This document shows positions 11,830-21,874 of a stretch of 64,000 nt of DNA, in pieces (position 1 is the first letter of the stretch; every line of letters begins with the position of its first letter). The stretch comes from Synechococcus sp. CBW1107 (GTDB lineage Bacteria > Cyanobacteriota > Cyanobacteriia > PCC-6307 > Cyanobiaceae): the NCBI RefSeq assembly GCF_015841355.1, contig NZ_CP064908.1, forward strand, positions 992,001 to 1,056,000, in the 5' to 3' direction. The notes under the pieces are model-generated. The model was given only the letters and a program-made list of their open reading frames with translations, did no database searches and had not been told where the DNA came from. The position numbers were made by a program, and so were the translations under genes.

Positions 11830-13479
11830 TCAGAACTTGAAGGTGGTCTTGACCAGGCCACCGAAGTTGTCGAAGGTGTCGCTGCTGGACTTCTGGAGCT
11901 GACCCAGGGGCACGCTGAGGTAGAAGAGCGCAGGGGTGACCGAGATGTTGTCGGTGACCTGGAACTTGTACCACCACTCCCAGGCATAGTTGCCGTCGTT
12001 GGCTTCAAGAAGATCGTTATCACCCGAATTGGTCAGGAAAGTGGCCTGACCAACGGCCATGCCGGCAGCATTGCCCTTGATGAACACGTCGGTCCATTGC
12101 AGACCCACATACCAGGATTGGGTCGTGGCACCGTCAATGGCATCTTCCAGAGCACCAGCGGAGCTGCTATCTGCGCTGTGGGAGTTAAGACCCCAACCAA
12201 GGCTGACCGAAGGGAGCCAACCGGAGTTGGAGGGCTGCCAATAGCCACTGACACCAACCGAATTCACGCTGGAGGAGAGCGCATACCCGAGGTTGGCCAG
12301 GGGAGTGCCATTGCCGCCATAGAGACCAGCCAGACCACCCTGAGGGCTGGTATAAGTGTAAGCCGCAGCGAGACCGAAGTTCTCGTTGTTCCAGGCGATC
12401 TGGGCGGTGCCGGTCTGAGCGGAACCCTCGGTGCCGATGCCGCCGAAGTTGGGGTTACCCACGTTGCCGTTGGCGGCCACGTAGTTGGCGCTGATGCTGA
12501 AGCCGCCGCTCTTCCACCAGATACCACCACCGGAGCCGAGGGTCAGGGGGTAGGCACCGGGAGCGCCGCCGTAGGTGAAGATGTCGAGGACGGTGTCAGC
12601 GGGGTACACACTGGGCCAGAAGGCGAGCATGTCGTCCTGACGGACCTTGCCACCGATCGTGGCGGTGAAGCTCTTGCCCAGGGGGAACTGATAGAAGAGG
12701 CGGTTGACTTCGACGGAATCGGCACCGCTGGCACCCTCGAAGGCCACCTCGAAGGCGTTCAGACCCACCAGGTTGTCACCGTTGGCAGCACCCCAGGGGC
12801 TGGAGCCGAAGTTGCCGGCACGCAGACGGGTGCGCAGCAGATCCTTGCCGGTGAAGCTGGTGTCGAGGAAGAGGTCGAGGTTGTAGTTGAAGGCCGTGGC
12901 GCCTTGCTGGGCCGCGGCGGCATCAGAGAACCTCTGACCGGGGGCGACCTTGCCGCCGTTGAGAACGGACTCACCAAACGTGGCCCGGGCGTCGCCGCCG
13001 AAGGAGTTGGCGCCGATGGTGAAGGTGGCCACACCACGCAGCTTGGTGGTGGTGGAGAACTGATTGGCCTCCAGTTCACCGACCTTTGCCTCGAGGTTGT
13101 CGACGCGGCCGCGCAGGATGGCGAGTTCCTTCTCGAACTCCTTGAGCAGACGGCGCAGCTCGTCGGTCACTTCGGTGATCCGATCGAGGCAGGCGTTCAG
13201 CAGAGCGGCGGCTTCCCAGCGGCTCAGCGGCTTCTTGCCCCGGAAGGTGCCATCGGGATAGCCGGCGACGCAGCCGTAGCGCTCGATCAGGTTCGAGAGC
13301 GCCTGATAGGCCCACTCGGTGGGCTGCACGTCGGAGAACTGAGTGATGCTGGTGACCTGATCCTCGGAGGCGGAATACTGGTTGATTCCGTCCAGGTTCA
13401 TTTCGCCGGCGGTGGCGGCCACGGGGGCCATCAGTCCGAGGGCGACAGGTGCCAGCAGCAATTGCCGGAAGAATTTCAT
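11830..13479 (-). CDS. SLH/OprB-type outer-membrane porin (SomA-like), copy 2
   Basis: The 549-aa reading begins at ATG 13479 (MKFFRQLLLAPVALGL), preceded by GAGGA. An earlier in-frame start at 13515 would add 12 residues before the signal peptide and is less likely. Signal peptide, SLH domain, coiled coil and beta-barrel with terminal TTFKF are arranged as in copy 1. From QVTSITQFSD to QFSTTTKL the two copies differ at only about three residues, after which the barrels diverge strongly. The protein is probably a differently selective or differently expressed pore. It is divergent from the GT39-like gene, with 75 bp between. Confidence 0.92.
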   Translation of the reverse strand: MKFFRQLLLAPVALGLMAPVAATAGEMNLDGINQYSASEDQVTSITQFSDVQPTEWAYQALSNLIERYGCVAGYPDGTFRGKKPLSRWEAAALLNACLDRITEVTDELRRLLKEFEKELAILRGRVDNLEAKVGELEANQFSTTTKLRGVATFTIGANSFGGDARATFGESVLNGGKVAPGQRFSDAAAAQQGATAFNYNLDLFLDTSFTGKDLLRTRLRAGNFGSSPWGAANGDNLVGLNAFEVAFEGASGADSVEVNRLFYQFPLGKSFTATIGGKVRQDDMLAFWPSVYPADTVLDIFTYGGAPGAYPLTLGSGGGIWWKSGGFSISANYVAANGNVGNPNFGGIGTEGSAQTGTAQIAWNNENFGLAAAYTYTSPQGGLAGLYGGNGTPLANLGYALSSSVNSVGVSGYWQPSNSGWLPSVSLGWGLNSHSADSSSAGALEDAIDGATTQSWYVGLQWTDVFIKGNAAGMAVGQATFLTNSGDNDLLEANDGNYAWEWWYKFQVTDNISVTPALFYLSVPLGQLQKSSSDTFDNFGGLVKTTFKF

Positions 13480-13554
13480 GGGGTCCTCACACAAGTTGGC
13501 GCGATGCGCCTGCATGAAGAATCACCCCCAGCCGCCGAGCTGGCCCGGGTAGAT

Positions 13555-15714
13555 GTGACAGAAAGCACAACGGCTGGGGGGAACGGTGCCTGGTCCAGAC
13601 TTGTCCCAACCGCCGCCACGGCCCTGAACGCACGGTCCCAACGCCCCTGGCTGTGGTGGCTGGCTCTGGCGGCCCTGTGGTTGGCGGGCAGCCTGGCCGA
13701 CAGGCTCTGGCTGCATCTCGATCAGCGGCTGCCGGCCTGGGACCAGGCCGACTATCTCAACAGTGCGATGGACCACGGCCGGGCCCTGGGGCTGCTGCCG
13801 GGCGGGGGCTGGCAGGGCTGGCCGGACCTGCTGGATCTCTCCCCCAAGGTGCCGCCGCTGGCGAGTCTGGTGAACGGCGCGGTGATCGCCCTCGCTGGCG
13901 ACAGCCCCGATCAGGCCAGCGCCGCCCTGGCTCTCTGGCAGGGGTTGCTGCTGGTGAGCGTGGCCGGCTGGGGACGACAGCTGGTGTCGCCCGGTTTCGG
14001 CCTGCTGGCGGCGGCGCTGACCAGCACCACACCGGCCCTGGTCAGCCTCCGGCTGGATTTCACCCTCGACCTGCCCCTCACCGCCACCAGCGTGCTGGCC
14101 CTCTGGCTGCTGGGGCGCTGGGCGGCACCTGAGCCCAGGGGGGGGAGCTGGGGACAGGCCGCTGCAGCGGCGCTGGCGCTGGCGGCGGCCGTGCTGGTGA
14201 AGCAGAGCGCGTTGCTGGTGCTGCTCCCCCCAGCCCTGTGGGCGGCGCTCCGGGGGCTGGGACACCCCCAGCGGCGCTGGCAGGCGCTGGGGGGCCTGGG
14301 GCTGGTGCTCGCCCTGGTGCTCCCCTGGCTGCAGCACAACTGGATCACCACCATCGGCGGCACCAACAGGGCCGTGCTGGAGTCGGCCGCCCAGGAGGGA
14401 GACCCGCCGCCGTTCAGCCTGGCCAGCCTCCTCTGGTATCCCCGGCTCTGGCCCCGGCAGCTGGGACTGGTCAACAGCCTGCCTGCCGTGGCAGGCGCGC
14501 TGCTGGCCCTGGGCGCCGCCTGGCGCCGTCGGGGGTTCCCGCGACCTCAGCCAGCCGTTGAGACGGGTCAGGCCAAGGACGGCCGGGGCTGGGCCTGGCT
14601 GATCGGCTGCAGCCTCAGTGGCTGGCTGTTCACCACCCTCAGCCCCAACAAGGACCCCCGCTACATCACTCCGGTCCTGCCCCTCCTGGTGCTGCTCCTG
14701 TGCTGGGGCTGGTGGCAGCTCGGAGGGGTCCTTCGCCGGCAGGGCCAGGGGCGCGCCAGCTGGGTGGCCCTGTCCGCCGGGCTGGCGGTCAGTGCGGGCA
14801 GCGCCGTGGCCGCCCAGGCCGGCGAGATCCGCTGGCAGCCCCGCTCACCCCTTCCAGCGGTCATGGACGCCATGCGTCAGCAGGTGGGTGAGCAGCCCTG
14901 CACCCTGGTGGTGCTGCCCAATGCCCCCGAGCTCAACGAGCACACCGCCACGGTGTTCGGTCGGGCCCGGGGAGGGCAGATCGTGGCCAGGCAGCTCGGC
15001 CGTCAGCCCAGAGAACGGCAGCTGGTGCTGGATCAGGCGGAGTGGATCCTGCTCACCACCGGCGAGGCGGGCATGCGGCGGGAAGCCTCACGGCAGCTGG
15101 CCAGGGAGATCCGCCAGGATCCCCGATTCCGGTTGGTGGGCCGCTGGCCCTGGAGCGACGGCGAACCTGTGGAGCTGTGGACGCGCCGCCGGCCCGTGGC
15201 CGCCACGGCCCGCTTCGATCGCCGCTTCATCGAACTGGCCTCCGGCCTGAAGCGGGGTCCCGCCGGGCTGGCGCCGGTGTTTGAGGCCATCGGCCCCCAG
15301 CACCAGCTCGATGGCCACTGGCTCTACCAGGGTCGGGTGACCGACTGGGCCGAGCAGCGCCTGCGCTCCGATGCCAGTGATCGTGAGGCGCTCTGGACAC
15401 TGGCGCTTCTGGCGGTCCTGCACAACCGTCCGAACCAGGCGGATCATTGGTTCTCCCGCCTGCAGACCCTGGAGCCGGGCAACCCATGGCCGCCGGCCTA
15501 CCGCAGTGTGGTGCTGCTGGCCGGCTGGAATCCCTGGCGCGCCCATGCCGTGGCCAGCGCCGCGGCCCGTGGTCATCAGGAGCCGGTGCTCGACGCCCTT
15601 GCCGATGTGAGCGGCGCCCTGCTGGCCAATCCCTTCAGCCTGCAGCGGGCCTTCCGTTCGGTTCCCCAGGCCACCAGCAGAGTGACCGACCAGATGAAGC
15701 AGGACCAACGATGA
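13555..15714 (+). CDS. GT39-like polytopic membrane glycosyltransferase with TPR-like tail
   Basis: About 719 aa if the GTG at 13555 is the start; this start is uncertain because no good ribosome site precedes it. Many hydrophobic helices fill residues 30-440. The first extramembrane loop holds an acidic pair (WDQADY) like the DE motif of PMT/ArnT enzymes, which use polyprenyl-phosphate sugars in the periplasm. The soluble C-terminal ~270 residues end in a TPR-like segment (REALWTLALLAVLHNRPNQA). The stop overlaps the next gene's ATG in ATGA. Substrate unknown; protein or surface-polymer glycosylation is inferred. Confidence 0.72.
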   Translation: MTESTTAGGNGAWSRLVPTAATALNARSQRPWLWWLALAALWLAGSLADRLWLHLDQRLPAWDQADYLNSAMDHGRALGLLPGGGWQGWPDLLDLSPKVPPLASLVNGAVIALAGDSPDQASAALALWQGLLLVSVAGWGRQLVSPGFGLLAAALTSTTPALVSLRLDFTLDLPLTATSVLALWLLGRWAAPEPRGGSWGQAAAAALALAAAVLVKQSALLVLLPPALWAALRGLGHPQRRWQALGGLGLVLALVLPWLQHNWITTIGGTNRAVLESAAQEGDPPPFSLASLLWYPRLWPRQLGLVNSLPAVAGALLALGAAWRRRGFPRPQPAVETGQAKDGRGWAWLIGCSLSGWLFTTLSPNKDPRYITPVLPLLVLLLCWGWWQLGGVLRRQGQGRASWVALSAGLAVSAGSAVAAQAGEIRWQPRSPLPAVMDAMRQQVGEQPCTLVVLPNAPELNEHTATVFGRARGGQIVARQLGRQPRERQLVLDQAEWILLTTGEAGMRREASRQLAREIRQDPRFRLVGRWPWSDGEPVELWTRRRPVAATARFDRRFIELASGLKRGPAGLAPVFEAIGPQHQLDGHWLYQGRVTDWAEQRLRSDASDREALWTLALLAVLHNRPNQADHWFSRLQTLEPGNPWPPAYRSVVLLAGWNPWRAHAVASAAARGHQEPVLDALADVSGALLANPFSLQRAFRSVPQATSRVTDQMKQDQR

Positions 15715-17363
15715 GGGTGGGCCGCGTGCTGCTCGGGCTCTGGGCCGTGGCCCTGGTGCTGGCCCTCGCCGGCCTGGGCAATCTGCCCCTGCGCGACTGG
15801 GATGAGGGCATCGTGGCTCGGGTGGCCCTGGAGACCAGCCAGGCGCCCTGGCCCGACAGCCTGCTGCCGACGTTCTGGGGATCCACCTATCTGAACAAGC
15901 CTCCGGGACTGCACTGGCTGATCGCAGGCGTGATCCAGCTCTGGCGCGCCCTCAGCGGCGAGGCCACCGCCCTCCCCCCGGAGTGGGTGATCAGGCTGGC
16001 GCCGGCGCTGATTTCGAGCCTGCTGGTGCCGCTGATCGGCGCGATTCAGCTGCGCCTGCGGCCCAGCCAGCCCCAGGCCGCCGTAGCAGCGGCAGCCATT
16101 GCCCTCACCCTGATGCCCCTGGTCCGCCACAGCCGGCTGGCCATGCTCGATGGGGCCCAGCTCACGGCCATGGCCCTGCTCTGGCTGGGCCTGCTGCTGG
16201 CTGGGCCCCGGCCTCGGGCGGCCCTCTCGGGCGGCCTGATCGCTGGGGCAGGGGGCAGTGCCCTGCTGCTGCTCAAGGCGCCGGTGCTGTTGCCGGTGCT
16301 GACCACGGGGCTGCTGCTGCGCTGGCTCGATCATGATCTGGATCGGCGGGCCTGGCTGCGCCTGGGCCTGGGCCTGGGCCTCGGGCTGTCATTGGGCCTG
16401 GCCTGGCACGGCTGGCATGGGCTGCAACGGGGCCCGGAGGCCCTGCTGATGTGGGGCGGCCAGGGGCTGCTGCGTTTCACCACCACGGTGGAGGAGCACC
16501 ACGGCGGTCCTCTCGTGCCGCTGCTGGAGGTGCTGGAGGGGGGGTGGCCCTGGCTGCCCCTCTGGCCTATCGGTCTGGGGCTGGCCTGGCGGGAACGGCG
16601 GCAACCGGCCGGCCGCTGGAGCCTGGGCCTGACCCTGGCCGCCACCCTCACCGTGCTGCCGATGAAGACCCAGCTGCCCTGGTACAGCCTGCTGCTCTGG
16701 CCACCGTTCTGCCTGATCTGCGGGCCGGTCCTGGCTCGCCTGATGGAGCCACCCCGCCCCCGAGGCCTGCTGAGGCCGCTGCCCTGGTTCTGGGCCGTTC
16801 TGGGGGGGGTGCTGGTGTTGGCATCCCTGCTGGCGCCATCGCCGCTGCGCTGGATGCCCCTGCCGGCGGGGCTGGGACTGCTGTTCGGGGGAATCAGCCT
16901 GAGCCGGCCAGCCCAAGGCCGACGACGGCTGGGGTTGGCACTGTTGCTGCTTGGTTGGAGCGCTTCGCTGCTGTTGTTTGTACTGAGCCCACTCTGGAAC
17001 TGGGAACTCAACGAACACTGGTCGGTGCTGCCCGCCGCTGAGCTGGCCCGAAGCGCCAGGGATGGGGGCGCTGCGGCCGAGCTGCCGATCCACATGCCCG
17101 GCAATCAGGGGCGGCGGCCCAGCCTGCGCTGGTATGCCGAGCGGGAGCTCTTCAAGCTGCCTGACAGCCCCGACGACCACTGGCCGAAGCGTTTCCGGGT
17201 GCTGCTGCGCCCCTCCGACGGCATCGGCAGGCTCGAGGCCGGCAACCCCAGGCGCCTGCGGCTGCAGGATGCCATCTGTGACCTGGAGGCCCGCGGTGGC
17301 GATAGCTGGCAACGCTGGATCTGCTCAGGAGGAGTCCAAGCTCCTGCCGTCCAGACCCCCTGA
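15711..17363 (+). CDS. GT39 (PMT/ArnT-like) membrane glycosyltransferase
   Basis: The 550-aa product is a canonical ArnT-like protein: an N-terminal helix, then LRDWDEGIVAR with the catalytic-type DE pair near residue 27, GSTYLNKPPGLHWL, and about ten further membrane helices. A short soluble C-terminal domain follows (ELPIHMPGNQG, then RWYAEREL). The KPP motif after the first loop is a family hallmark. It should transfer a lipid-linked sugar to lipid, protein or polymer on the periplasmic side. ATGA overlap with the preceding gene and overlap with the next indicate a three-gene operon. Confidence 0.85.
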   Translation: MRVGRVLLGLWAVALVLALAGLGNLPLRDWDEGIVARVALETSQAPWPDSLLPTFWGSTYLNKPPGLHWLIAGVIQLWRALSGEATALPPEWVIRLAPALISSLLVPLIGAIQLRLRPSQPQAAVAAAAIALTLMPLVRHSRLAMLDGAQLTAMALLWLGLLLAGPRPRAALSGGLIAGAGGSALLLLKAPVLLPVLTTGLLLRWLDHDLDRRAWLRLGLGLGLGLSLGLAWHGWHGLQRGPEALLMWGGQGLLRFTTTVEEHHGGPLVPLLEVLEGGWPWLPLWPIGLGLAWRERRQPAGRWSLGLTLAATLTVLPMKTQLPWYSLLLWPPFCLICGPVLARLMEPPRPRGLLRPLPWFWAVLGGVLVLASLLAPSPLRWMPLPAGLGLLFGGISLSRPAQGRRRLGLALLLLGWSASLLLFVLSPLWNWELNEHWSVLPAAELARSARDGGAAAELPIHMPGNQGRRPSLRWYAERELFKLPDSPDDHWPKRFRVLLRPSDGIGRLEAGNPRRLRLQDAICDLEARGGDSWQRWICSGGVQAPAVQTP

Positions 17364-18981
17364 ACAGAGGCGGGCCCAGCGGGCCGTGCTGGTGGCGGCG
17401 GTGCTCTTCGCGCTGATCGGGCTGCTGCTGCAGTGGTGGCGGCTGCAGGTGCTCACCGCCTCCTACGACCAGGGCATCTTTCTGCAAACGATCTGGAGCG
17501 GATTGCAGGGCCATCCCTTCGAGAGCACCCTCTCCTCCCAGCTCTCCACCAATGTCATCCACGCCGGGGAACCTCCCTCCCTGGGCTATCACCGCCTGGG
17601 CCAGCACTTCACCCCAGCCCTGCTGCTCTGGGTGCCCCTGGTTGGGCTGCTGGGGATCTGGGCGCTGCCGCTTGTGCAGGTGGGCCTGATGACCGCCGCC
17701 GGACTGGTTCTGCATCGAATCGCCCGCGAGCGATTGCAGGATCCCTGGCTGGCCGCCTTCCTGGCCTGCAGCTTCTTCGGTGCCAACGCGGTGATCGGCC
17801 CCACCTGGGGGAACTTCACCGATCTGTGCCAGCTCCCCCTGGCCGTGCTGCTGCTCTGGTATGGGCTGCAGCGCCGCCTCTGGTGGTTGCTGGCGCTGAC
17901 GGCGGTGGCGGTGCCAATGATCCGCGAGGACACCGGCGTTCTGCTGGTGGGGATCAGCCTCTGGATCCTGGTGCGGCAGCGTCAGCGCTGGCCCCTGGCC
18001 CTGGCTCTGGCCGCCCTGGGGCTGGGCTGGGTGTTGCTGGTGACCAACGTGCTGATGCCCCTGTTCAGCGACGACAACTCCCGCCGCTTCATGGTGGAGA
18101 ACTTCGGCCAGTACATCGGTGACGCGGAGCAGGCCAGCAGCCTGGAGGTGCTGCACAAGGCTCTCAGGCAGCCGTTGGTGATACTGCGGGAGCTGATCTG
18201 GCCGCCAGGAGAGACTCTGCGTTACCTGCTGGCGCAGGGTCTGCCCCTGATGCTGGTGCCGCTGATCAGCCTCGACAGCTGGCTGCTGATGGGCATGCCC
18301 CTGCTGGGCCTGCTGCTGGCTCAGGGATCGAACAACCCCCTCTCGATCAACCTCCGCTACGCCCTGCTGGTGGTGCCTGGGCTGTTCGCCGGGGCGATCG
18401 AGTGGTGGCGCCGCCATCCCCAGGTCTTTGCCCATCGGCGTCTGCGCCGGGTCTGGATCGGCTGCATCACGCTCTCGCTGCTGTTCACCCTGCTGGCCAA
18501 CCCCAACCGCAGCCTCTCGTTCCTGATTCCCGACAGCATCGATCCCTGGGTCTACAGCTCACCGCCGCGTCAGTGGAGCCACGGGGCCAGCGCCCGGGCG
18601 CTGCTCAGAACGATCCCCGAGGGCGCCAGCGTGACCGCCACCACGCCGCTGATCCCCCACCTGGCCCAGAGACCGGTGCTGATCCGCTTCCCGAACGGGG
18701 TGATCTACCGCGACCGCCAGGGCAGTCGCCGGGCCGTCGACTGGATCGCCATCGATTTCGATTGGTTGCGCCGCTATGCGGTGGCATTCCCCGTCGATCG
18801 GGAAGCCCTGGAGACCAGCCTCGAGGCCCTGAACTCCCTGCCTGAGCCCTACGGAGTGAGGGCCTTCGCCGATGGGGTGGTGCTGCTGCAACGGAAAGCG
18901 CCCGATGTGCAGCCAGCGCGGCGCCAGCTCCAGGAGCTGATGGGCTCGATCCAGCGACAGCTCGATCGCAGACCCGACTGA
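17296..18981 (+). CDS. DUF2079 polytopic membrane protein
   Basis: This 561-aa reading starts at GTG 17296, which has GGAGG six bases upstream and overlaps the preceding gene by 68 bp. Other candidates are a CTG at 17344, nine bases after AGGAGGAG, and a GTG at 17386. The protein has roughly ten membrane helices, an early SYDQGIFLQTIWS motif with an acidic residue in the first loop, PMIREDTGV, and a soluble C-terminal part (TTPLIPHLAQRP, VDWIAIDFDW). DUF2079 proteins are distant GT-C relatives of unknown function. Placement after two GT39 genes supports a role in glycan transfer. Confidence 0.82.
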   Translation: MAIAGNAGSAQEESKLLPSRPPEQRRAQRAVLVAAVLFALIGLLLQWWRLQVLTASYDQGIFLQTIWSGLQGHPFESTLSSQLSTNVIHAGEPPSLGYHRLGQHFTPALLLWVPLVGLLGIWALPLVQVGLMTAAGLVLHRIARERLQDPWLAAFLACSFFGANAVIGPTWGNFTDLCQLPLAVLLLWYGLQRRLWWLLALTAVAVPMIREDTGVLLVGISLWILVRQRQRWPLALALAALGLGWVLLVTNVLMPLFSDDNSRRFMVENFGQYIGDAEQASSLEVLHKALRQPLVILRELIWPPGETLRYLLAQGLPLMLVPLISLDSWLLMGMPLLGLLLAQGSNNPLSINLRYALLVVPGLFAGAIEWWRRHPQVFAHRRLRRVWIGCITLSLLFTLLANPNRSLSFLIPDSIDPWVYSSPPRQWSHGASARALLRTIPEGASVTATTPLIPHLAQRPVLIRFPNGVIYRDRQGSRRAVDWIAIDFDWLRRYAVAFPVDREALETSLEALNSLPEPYGVRAFADGVVLLQRKAPDVQPARRQLQELMGSIQRQLDRRPD

Positions 18982-19022
18982 AGGAACGGGGCTCCAAACA
19001 GGAACCGGGCAACAAGAACGAT

Positions 19023-19072
19023 GCCCCCGTAACCGCGTTCCTGAGCAGGCTCAGAAGCGAGGTGACGGGGGC
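19023..19072 (-). terminator. Large hairpin, possible terminator of small minus-strand unit
   Basis: An 8-bp perfect inverted repeat GCCCCCGT/ACGGGGGC (19023-19030 and 19065-19072) encloses a second repeat CTGAG/CTCAG. On the minus strand it is followed by a T-rich but interrupted run (ATCGTTCTTGTT). It could end the small unit at 19128-19298 or act in both directions, since the DUF2079 gene stops 41 bp away. Confidence 0.4.
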
Positions 19073-19127
19073 GTTCGCCGGGTCCACTCTGGCGCGGAAC
19101 CGATTGATCAGGAAACAAGCGCCGAAA

Positions 19128-19181
19128 TCAGCCGGCGTTCTCCGCGATCAGCAGACCCTGGGTCATGGAACTGTGGCTCAC
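19128..19181 (-). CDS. Possible 17-codon small ORF with a strong ribosome site
   Basis: A GTG at 19181 is preceded by AAGGAGGAGGT with a short spacer, one of the strongest Shine-Dalgarno sequences in the window. The reading is VSHSSMTQGLLIAENAG and stops at 19128. Upstream is a TTAGAT -10-like hexamer at 19298-19293 and downstream is the hairpin at 19023-19072, so this could be a complete small transcription unit of about 250 nt. No family was recognised. It may instead be a leader peptide or an sRNA with a chance ORF. The 420-bp gap between DUF2079 and psbD contains nothing else I can call. Confidence 0.3.
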   Translation of the reverse strand: MSHSSMTQGLLIAENAG

Positions 19182-19292
19182 GGGCACCTCCTCCTTGGGG
19201 GGATAAAGCCAGCCGGCGACGCATTCGAAGCGGGCTCATCGGGCACGGGGCCTGACGGCCTGCTCCACGACACTGCTGACGGAACAGGACGA

Positions 19293-19298
19293 ATCTAA
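19293..19298 (-). promoter_or_regulatory. Possible -10 element of small minus-strand unit
   Basis: TTAGAT on the minus strand, about 110 bp before the 17-codon ORF. Just upstream is a 12-bp perfect palindrome GCCTGGCCAGGC at 19306-19317, which could be an operator. No clear -35 is present. Confidence 0.25.
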
Positions 19299-19359
19299 GG
19301 GAGTTGCCTGGCCAGGCGAGAGCCCTTGAGCCGGGCAGCACAGGGAGAATCCTGGCCAC

Positions 19360-19381
19360 AAAAAAGCGCCCCGAAGGGCGC
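19360..19381 (-). terminator. Rho-independent terminator after psbD
   Basis: On the minus strand a GCGCCC/GGGCGC stem with a TTCG loop is followed by six T residues, 22 bp after the psbD stop. It supports psbD being transcribed alone. Confidence 0.85.
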
Positions 19382-19402
19382 CGTGTGGACGATGACAGCC
19401 GA

Positions 19403-20461
19403 TCAGAGGGCGTTGCCGCGGGGCAGGACCTCTTCAGGGAAGACGAAGTTTTCATGCGGCTGGTCGGCCGGTGCCATCCAGGCACGCAGACCCTCGTTCA
19501 GAAGAATGTTCTTCGTGTAGAAGGTCTCGAATTCGGGGTCCTCAGCGGCGCGGATCTCCTGCGACACGAAGTCGTAGGCACGCAGGTTGAGGGCCAGGCC
19601 GATGATGCCGATGCTGCTGGTCCACAGACCCATCACCGGCACGAACAGCATGAAGAAGTGCAGCCAGCGCTTGTTGGAGAAGGCGATCCCGAAGATCTGG
19701 CTCCAGAAGCGGTTGGCGGTGACCATCGAATAGGTCTCCTCTTCCTGGGTGGGCTCGAACGCCTTGAAGGTGTTCGCCTGCTCGGAATCCTCGAACAGGG
19801 TGTTCTCCACCGTGGCGCCGTGGATGGCACAGAGCAGAGCACCACCGAGGATGCCGGCCACGCCCATCATGTGGAACGGGTTCAGGGTCCAGTTGTGGAA
19901 GCCCTGCAGGAAGAGCAGGAAGCGGAAGATGGCGGCCACCCCGAAGGAGGGGGCGAAGAACCAGCTGCTCTGGCCCAGCGGATACATCAGGAAGACACTG
20001 ACGAACACCGCGATCGGACCGGAGAAGGCGATGGCGTTGTAGGGACGGATGCCCACCAGACGGGCGATCTCGAACTGACGCAGCATGAAGCCGATCAGCG
20101 CGAAGGCGCCGTGCAGGGCGACGAACGGCCAGAGGCCGCCCAGCTGCACCCAGCGCACGAAGTCACCCTGGGCTTCCGGGCCCCAGAGCAGCAGCAGGCT
20201 GTGCCCCATGGCATCAGCCGGGGTGCTCACCGCGGCGGTGAGGAAGTTGCAGCCCTCCAGGTAGCTGCTGGCAATGCCGTGGGTGTACCAGGAGGTGGCG
20301 AAGGTGGTGCCGGTCAGCCAGCCGCCCAGGGCCAGGTAGGCCGTGGGGAACAGCAGCAGGCCGGACCAGCCGACAAAAACAAAGCGGTCACGCTTGAGCC
20401 AGTCATCGAGGATGTCGAACCATCCCCGTGCGGCAGGCGCGCGCCCTACAGCGATCGTCAT
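19403..20461 (-). CDS. psbD: Photosystem II D2 protein, stand-alone copy
   Basis: D2 forms the photosystem II reaction-centre core with D1. The 352-aa protein is complete and has the expected functional residues: Y160 (tyrosine D), H197 (P680 ligand), H214 and H268 (non-haem iron ligands). It starts [20 protein letters not shown] and ends [11 protein letters not shown]. In cyanobacteria one psbD copy normally overlaps psbC; here a terminator follows at once and no CP43 gene exists, so this looks like the separate second copy (psbD2), often light-responsive. UPF0367 is divergent from it. Confidence 0.97.
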
Positions 20462-21635: not shown

Positions 21636-21651
21636 GTTCACCTGAGCCCGT

Positions 21652-21723
21652 TCCTCGGTAGCTCAGTGGTAGAGCGGTCGGCTGTTAACCGATTGGTCGC
21701 AGGTTCGAATCCTGCCCGGGGAG
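21652..21723 (+). tRNA. tRNA-Asn (anticodon GTT)
   Basis: A 72-nt cloverleaf: acceptor TCCTCGG/CCGGGGA, a D-arm with AGCTCAGTGGTAGAGC, anticodon loop CTGTTAA with GTT, T-arm GCAGG-TTCGAAT-CCTGC and discriminator G. The 3' CCA is not encoded. It lies 16 bp after the ABC ATPase gene. Confidence 0.97.
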
Positions 21724-21874
21724 TTCATCACCAGAGTGCCGCGTTCTGAACGATGGCCCCGGTCACACTGGTCTTCTTGTGCTGTCTGGACAGAGTCCAA
21801 CGTCTCCAGGGAGCCGGTGGAGGGCACTGTGTTGTCACAGCGGGACGGCGCTGGCAAGGCCTGAGCCGGTAGAA

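Follow-up and report, generated by a model that had tools for sequence, protein, structure and literature searches.

Two small RNAs of cyanobacteria come closest to the locus analysed in this work. According to the available text of PMC4734099, the Synechocystis 6803 sRNA ncl0160 (cited there to Mitschke 2011) has 83 homologues with a frame of 23-25 amino acids, a ribosome site and an ATG or GTG start; the frames end with TAA in 47 cases, with TAG in 34 and with TGA in 2. The peptide was inferred from the alignment, and RNAcode was applied to alignments in the same paper. The second, Sye_sRNA1, is described in the accessible part of PMC6091082 as the top-ranking sRNA by abundance in S. elongatus UTEX 2973 under two conditions, with a main transcript of approximately 200 nt. 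Its fold is conserved in the 53 homologues reported, which mostly follow psbD or cobB; in Synechocystis, the homologues TU475 and TU2045 (strains 6803 and 6714) rank among the most abundant transcripts. The same text reports that the levels of Sye_sRNA1 or its homologue change with high light, heat and dark and are lowered by high light; the dark response was upwards in dRNA-Seq but downwards in a Northern blot after 12 h.

Layout of the locus and comparison with chance

The window, the whole stretch of DNA analysed here, comprises 64,000 nt of Synechococcus sp. CBW1107. The element is read on the minus strand, with a predicted RNA at 19285-19012. Between 19297 and 19012 a -10 box, a 5' hairpin, a Shine-Dalgarno (SD) sequence, a 17-codon GTG...TGA frame and a terminator follow one another in this order. 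A sequence-only reading of this DNA had proposed a -10-like element, an SD, a GTG, a 17-codon ORF, a nested hairpin and an imperfect T run in a gap of about 420 bp; all of these parts were found, and the gap between psbD (19403) and the DUF2079 gene (18981) measured 421 bp. The features below draw on two alignments: A1 (60 sequences kept from 170 usable elements so that no two share 90% identity or more) and A3 (47 of these 60 leaders, after 13 were dropped by hand as redundant or irregular).

19403 to 20461, minus strand: psbD (photosystem II D2 protein), outside the RNA; NCBIfam TIGR01152, 767.9 bits
19292 to 19297, minus strand: -10 promoter element TAGATT; leader alignment A3, 47 chosen relatives
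19208 to 19280, minus strand: long 5' hairpin H1 (GTCAGC ... GCTGGC); pair counts in 47 of 60 leaders
19186 to 19196, minus strand: Shine-Dalgarno sequence AAGGAGGAGGT; letters and 49 of 49 blastn loci
19128 to 19181, minus strand: 17-codon ORF, GTG start at 19181, TGA stop; frame VSHSSMTQGLLIAENAG
19080 to 19158, minus strand: hairpin H2; A1 consensus fold and pair counts
19012 to 19079, minus strand: terminator hairpin H3 with base C-G-A ... U-C-G and an imperfect U run; pair counts

In the 47 leaders of A3 the -10 box reads TAnnnT, with an invariant A and last T and the first T in at least 90%. A G seven bases past the -10 box (19285) is also invariant and is the likely transcription start. 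The RNA 3' end is predicted near 19012, and the element is thus predicted to be a free-standing RNA with its own promoter and terminator, about 274 nt long if both of these ends are right. The 5' strand of H2 (19158-19133) runs from the last base of codon 8 through the first base of codon 17, and its 3' strand (19102-19080) is the segment after the stop, so that the second half of the frame is one strand of a hairpin. The stop codon (19130-19128) sits in the H2 loop, two unpaired bases after the helix.

Upstream, the distance from the psbD end (19403) to the SD is 206 nt. The RNA gene is set apart from psbD by a compact stem that resembles a terminator, with a T run, immediately behind psbD (19382-19365, minus strand). 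Downstream, the DUF2079 membrane-protein gene is on the plus strand, ends at 18981 and is convergent with the element; it is the last of three long, partly overlapping frames that read like membrane proteins (12097-18981, plus strand).

The exact motif AAGGAGGAGGT occurs once in the window. With up to two mismatches there are 27 matches versus 17.4 expected, a number reached by 2 of 100 shuffles, and AAGGAGGAGGTG occurs four times in the 3.2-Mb genome versus three times for the reversed control. Taken by itself, the SD motif does not stand out clearly from chance: of the earlier claim that so strong an SD is rare in the window, the single exact copy stands, but the motif is not clearly rarer than in shuffled or reversed controls. 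A generic sigma-70 scan called no promoter at the element. The fold of the single sequence had a z-score of -2.4, and 5 of 200 shuffles reached an equally good fold. As the SD motif is not clearly rarer than the controls and the promoter scan was silent, the case rests on comparison, and it is conservation among relatives that lifts the element above chance; a chance ORF is ruled out by the conservation of the SD and the frame.

Searches of the window with Rfam 15 at gathering score and with ARAGORN returned only a tRNA-Asn (21651-21724) and nothing on the element. When Rfam 15 matches up to E = 5 were admitted, four sub-threshold matches appeared; all of them fell within 19301-19386, next to the terminator of psbD, and the element itself had none. 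No Rfam 15 family, tRNA or tmRNA was found in 20 loci of other cyanobacterial families either. The element is therefore not assigned to a tRNA, a tmRNA or any Rfam 15 family, and an annotation relying on Rfam 15 would miss the gene.

Distribution and genomic context of the RNA family

Loci of the Cyanobium/Synechococcus/Prochlorococcus family are called alpha, and those of other cyanobacterial families beta. A covariance model (R1, 169 positions) built from the 60 alpha sequences matched 203 of 400 family genomes at E<=0.01, and 197 had no match. Nearly all of the 203 genomes carried one copy and about five carried two (7 candidates per genome were scored). A second, diverged copy was seen at G042:C1:2023818-2023981 (R1 E=3.1e-23), approximately 5 kb from the main copy. 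In a class-wide sample, R1 matched 41 of 242 genomes at E<=0.1, including full-length matches in other families; the weakest of these 41 matches are probably chance. Twenty other-family loci were fetched, themselves found by R1, with E-values from 5.9e-16 to 5.8e-6 over 62 kb. A second covariance model (R2, alignment A2), which contains no alpha-family member, was made from 18 of them, leaving out L195 (near-identical to L193) and L209 (no clear terminator). R2 matched 203 of the 242 class genomes at E<=0.001, with 39 lacking a match, and recovered the window locus at E=2.7e-6. This reciprocal comparison, with R1 outward and R2 back, shows homology in sequence and structure between the window element and the other-family loci. 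Judged by these matches the RNA family is widespread, occurring in most sampled genomes of the class; 58 of the 146 genomes in a phylum sample matched, all 58 inside the class.

The RNA is dispensable in some lineages, as R1 had no match in 197 of the 400 family genomes and R2 had none in 39 of the 242 class genomes. Twenty R1-negative family genomes were listed, of which 19 have 1.0-1.9 Mb and one (G054) 3.0 Mb. The groups g18, g11, g39 and g86 (1.6-1.9 Mb) had no match with R1 or R2 where listed and appear to be streamlined Prochlorococcus; other Prochlorococcus genomes carry the element among the pattern matches listed. A pattern scan of named contigs gave at least 120 places, and the hosts among the matches listed were Cyanobium, Synechococcus, Prochlorococcus, Vulcanococcus, Aphanothece and cyanobacterial bins. 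Two contigs carried other labels, L089 that of a Bifidobacterium breve MAG and L063 that of 'bacterium TMED88'. The L089 bin seems to hold a cyanobacterial contig, since its DUF2079 neighbour is 66% identical to that of the window. Viral contigs gave no match to the exact alpha pattern, which disfavours a phage origin.

A co-oriented psbD was found no more than 1,500 nt upstream in at least 57 of 142 alpha and at least 20 of 37 beta loci; these counts are lower bounds because 41 alpha and 8 beta loci had less than 450 nt of upstream sequence. It is more than 800 nt away in 10 of the 57 alpha loci and in 1 of the 20 beta loci. In the largest neighbour cluster (DUF2079-like), 42 of 49 members are downstream and on the opposite strand, and the neighbours of the element differ between genomes. 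A by-eye reading of the upstream proteins of 15 loci did not bring cobB to notice. From its arrangement the RNA gene is its own free-standing unit, given that the downstream neighbour is convergent and the neighbours vary, and its association with psbD is old without being fixed.

Conservation of the frame and of the RNA fold

The gap had blastn matches in 44 of 99 related genomes at E<=0.1, and its core in 198 of 400 family genomes at E<=0.01. The 57 blastn-derived loci, to which no ORF filter was applied, reduced to 49 distinct loci, and all 49 had GGAGGAGGTG, an RTG start, exactly 17 codons and a stop. The sequence-only reading had named a lack of conservation of the ORF or its ribosome site as grounds for giving it up; both proved conserved. 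The alpha search pattern demands RTG and GGTC, and the conservation of those letters was judged on the 49 unfiltered loci. Every one of the 181 pattern matches (repeat fetches included) had 17 codons, with GTG (103) or ATG (78) as the start and TGA (170), TAA (7) or TAG (4) as the stop. A loosened ORF pattern, with the SD, RTG and some letters in codons 4, 8 and 9 prescribed, gave 142 distinct alpha loci, and 17 codons were kept in 141. The frame was also kept at 17 codons in L214 and L223, which are outside the pattern, and the SD of L214 (GGAGGAGATGCC) is intermediate between the alpha and beta forms. Twelve further loci were picked by R1 score; SD, RTG and 17 codons were present in 11 of them. 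The twelfth was the same exception as among the 142 loci, L221 (1508, minus strand; genome G020, small and 71% complete), where the frame is broken inside the ORF. The RNA of L221 outside the frame break still matches R1 (1.2e-31), and the break is either an assembly error or real decay.

The beta loci keep the same plan, mostly with longer frames. In the 20 other-family loci, GGAGGTGATGCC stands before ATG in 17, GGAGGTGGTGCC in two and GGAGGTGTTGCC in one, and the frame has 23 codons in 17 loci, 24 in one and 17 in two. From the R2 matches, twenty further other-family loci were hand-picked to cover diverse and low-scoring cases, disregarding the ORF. Each carried an SD followed by a frame of 17-27 codons that starts with ATG, where the second ATG was taken as the start if two in-frame ATGs followed the G-rich run; GGAGGTGATGCC was present in 12 and near variants in the rest, and the stops were TAA, TAG or TGA. 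The loci with 23-24 codons end with TAA (20), TAG (14) or TGA (1). Among the alpha loci, ATG and GTG starts interchange, like the three stops.

The RNA fold was conserved together with the frame. In the 60 alpha sequences of A1, 97.6% of cells pair and 15 of 34 pairs change on both sides; 0 of 500 shuffles reached the covariation score. Most of these double changes are in the terminator H3, with compensatory change in 10 of 17 pairs, and H2 (helices 1-3) has 97.6-98.7% of cells paired with double changes in 5 of 17 pairs. In H1, 94.7% of cells are paired and 14 of 17 pairs show compensatory change, with a covariation score reached by 0 of 500 shuffles; the pair counts for H1 lean towards clear leaders, as 13 of the 60 leaders were excluded by hand. 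Single-sequence folds of the leader gave the long hairpin, by our criterion, in 40 of 60. The base of the terminator is C-G-A/U-C-G in alpha and mostly C-U-A/U-A-G in other families. These comparisons of related sequences show that the structure of the RNA is conserved. An open 'landing pad' at the SD was considered and rejected: the SD is unpaired in the alignment consensus, but single-sequence folds show no greater exposure. Its mean unpaired probability was 0.27 in alpha versus 0.33 for the whole RNA (above the whole in 11 of 59) and 0.35 versus 0.35 in beta (above the whole in 11 of 20).

Counted from the end of the paired H2 5' strand, the stop begins at a distance of 2 nt in alpha and of 6 nt in 17 of 18 A2 loci, although the beta frames are 6-7 codons longer. 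The exception is L193 (S. elongatus-like), where the stop is inside the beta helix model. In L061 and L079 most of the H2 loop is absent and the frame ends with TAG at the same codon, so the H2 loop may be dispensable.

Substitutions were compared at the three codon positions. The 105 unique alpha frames, with the broken one counted, had a diversity of 0.20, 0.24 and 0.21 at positions 1, 2 and 3; for beta frames of 23 codons the values were 0.16, 0.22 and 0.21. In the longer frames, the N-terminal block had 0.25 at each position and no third-position excess; the C-terminal block had 0.13, 0.20 and 0.24, a modest excess obtained with 44 of 56 unique frames that were chosen by length and a peptide pattern, a choice that favours conserved ones. 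Departures in the C block comprised 25 synonymous and 56 non-synonymous changes. In a column-shuffling test, amino-acid similarity was above the null in both blocks (0 of 200; relatedness ignored). Within alpha, codons 2, 3, 5, 6 and 7 vary freely and codons 10-16 contain long runs frozen at the nucleotide level. G is constant at codon 9, and E at codon 14, across all 49 unfiltered frames and all ten R1-score frames shown. Diverged loci again have SSK...G and RLCAGAVL-like ends, where some of the changes are synonymous. The frame is kept, but codon positions vary about equally overall. Selection on the frame and stop is clear from these alignments, and selection on the peptide letters appears weak or mixed. 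Selection on the peptide only was set aside, the signal being weak or mixed across the codon-position and shuffling tests. As far as sequence comparison goes, the start, frame and stop are shown to be maintained, and kept more strictly than the peptide.

Interpretation and relation to known RNAs

We give a probability of roughly one half to the reading that the window element is the alpha orthologue of Sye_sRNA1/ncl0160, a single-copy structured RNA gene whose translation acts on the RNA itself. Such an action is suggested by the frame and stop position being kept more strictly than the amino acids. We infer that the element is transcribed in CBW1107, that it is translated and that translation would remodel it; its homologues are transcribed, according to the available text of PMC4734099 and PMC6091082. 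Ribosomes would load at the strong SD, read the 17 codons into one strand of H2 and stop in the H2 loop. Each round of translation would open H2, which would reclose behind the ribosome. Ribosome traffic would set the fold of the RNA, and hence its stability or partner binding, and would make the RNA sensitive to the translational state in light, in the dark and under heat. Several observations count against this reading: the genomes with no R1 or R2 match, an SD no more exposed than average in single-sequence folds, the few double changes in H2, the weak peptide signal in the C-terminal block, the stop position in L193 and the broken frame of L221. Another proposal, which we hold to be unlikely, is that the RNA senses or buffers translational capacity by means of a near-maximal SD and an ORF of little sequence importance, with the opening of H2 or ribosome titration coupling protein synthesis to light.

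The RNA could also serve mainly as the message for a functional micropeptide of 17 aa in the window (in other cyanobacteria mostly 23-27 aa), its folds doing no more than protecting or tuning that message. This is possible but doubtful. A strong SD, start, frame and stop are kept, two residues are constant and similar peptide ends recur, amino-acid similarity exceeds the column-shuffled null, and a peptide is inferred for ncl0160 in the part of PMC4734099 available; however, no third-position excess exists over the whole frame, five alpha codons vary freely, and the conserved C-terminal block is missing from the 17-codon frames, where the RNA family persists regardless. If the ORF were instead a by-product of a trans-acting antisense-type sRNA (like PsrR1 or Yfr1), a reading we regard as unlikely, the freezing of codons 10-16 within the family, the free-standing gene and the high abundance of homologues given in the accessible part of PMC6091082 would fit. 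The frozen runs, however, largely coincide with H2 pairing, and the stop codons interchange at a fixed position, as ATG and GTG do at the start.

A leader peptide with an attenuator of the downstream gene is highly improbable: a short ORF, a hairpin and a terminator do follow in order, but the downstream gene (DUF2079) is convergent here, the same cluster is downstream and on the opposite strand in 42 of its 49 members, and neighbours vary between genomes. A transcription-attenuation leader was rejected on the same grounds, as no co-oriented gene lies behind the terminator, which ends the RNA. The sequence-only reading had left the choice between a micropeptide, a leader peptide and a regulatory RNA; a structured, free-standing sRNA with a maintained short ORF is what remains of it, and the leader peptide is dropped.

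L193 and L195, which we take to be S. elongatus, are matched by R1 over their full length; their frames have 17 codons, and psbD lies no more than 100 nt ahead of their SD. The window element resembles Sye_sRNA1, as described in the available text of PMC6091082, in being a free-standing small RNA with a conserved fold and psbD upstream. It differs in length (approximately 200 nt for Sye_sRNA1 versus 274 nt predicted here), and the 53 homologues reported there compare with R1 or R2 matches in a few hundred genomes in this study. The available text on Sye_sRNA1 makes no mention of an ORF. With ncl0160, as far as PMC4734099 was available, it shares the short conserved ORF, the ribosome site, the ATG or GTG start and the use of all three stops. 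The ncl0160 frame has 23-25 codons versus 17 in the window and the S. elongatus-like loci, and TGA ends 2 of its 83 frames versus 170 of 181 alpha pattern matches; with so few TGA stops, it is scarcely possible that the reported set covers much of the alpha branch. Its stop usage is close to that of the 23-24-codon loci found here.

Two other RNAs were compared, each by its description in the parts of the papers at hand. Yfr103 of marine picocyanobacteria (PMC5069720) is similar in length (290-328 nt), hosts and very high abundance, but its seven paralogues in CC9605 do not seem to fit the element, which is single-copy in nearly all matched genomes. Yfr6 of Prochlorococcus MED4 and SS120 (PMC1242208, PMC2518516) is likewise small (244 nt) and contains a short ORF, but its frame has 33 aa and its neighbours are others; a Northern signal was reported in MED4 and SS120 only, of four strains. 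Identity with Yfr6 was ruled out by frame length (33 versus 17 codons) and host range. By contrast, Sye_sRNA1, ncl0160 and the window element are taken as one family on the basis of their features and synteny, the published reports being compared by description. Two separately named RNAs are thereby joined into one family, present in 203 of 242 class genomes and in none outside the class in the phylum sample, and a picocyanobacterial branch with a shorter frame is added to it. In this family the frame, the stop position and the RNA fold are conserved together, and the question of whether the peptide, the RNA or translation itself matters is made testable.
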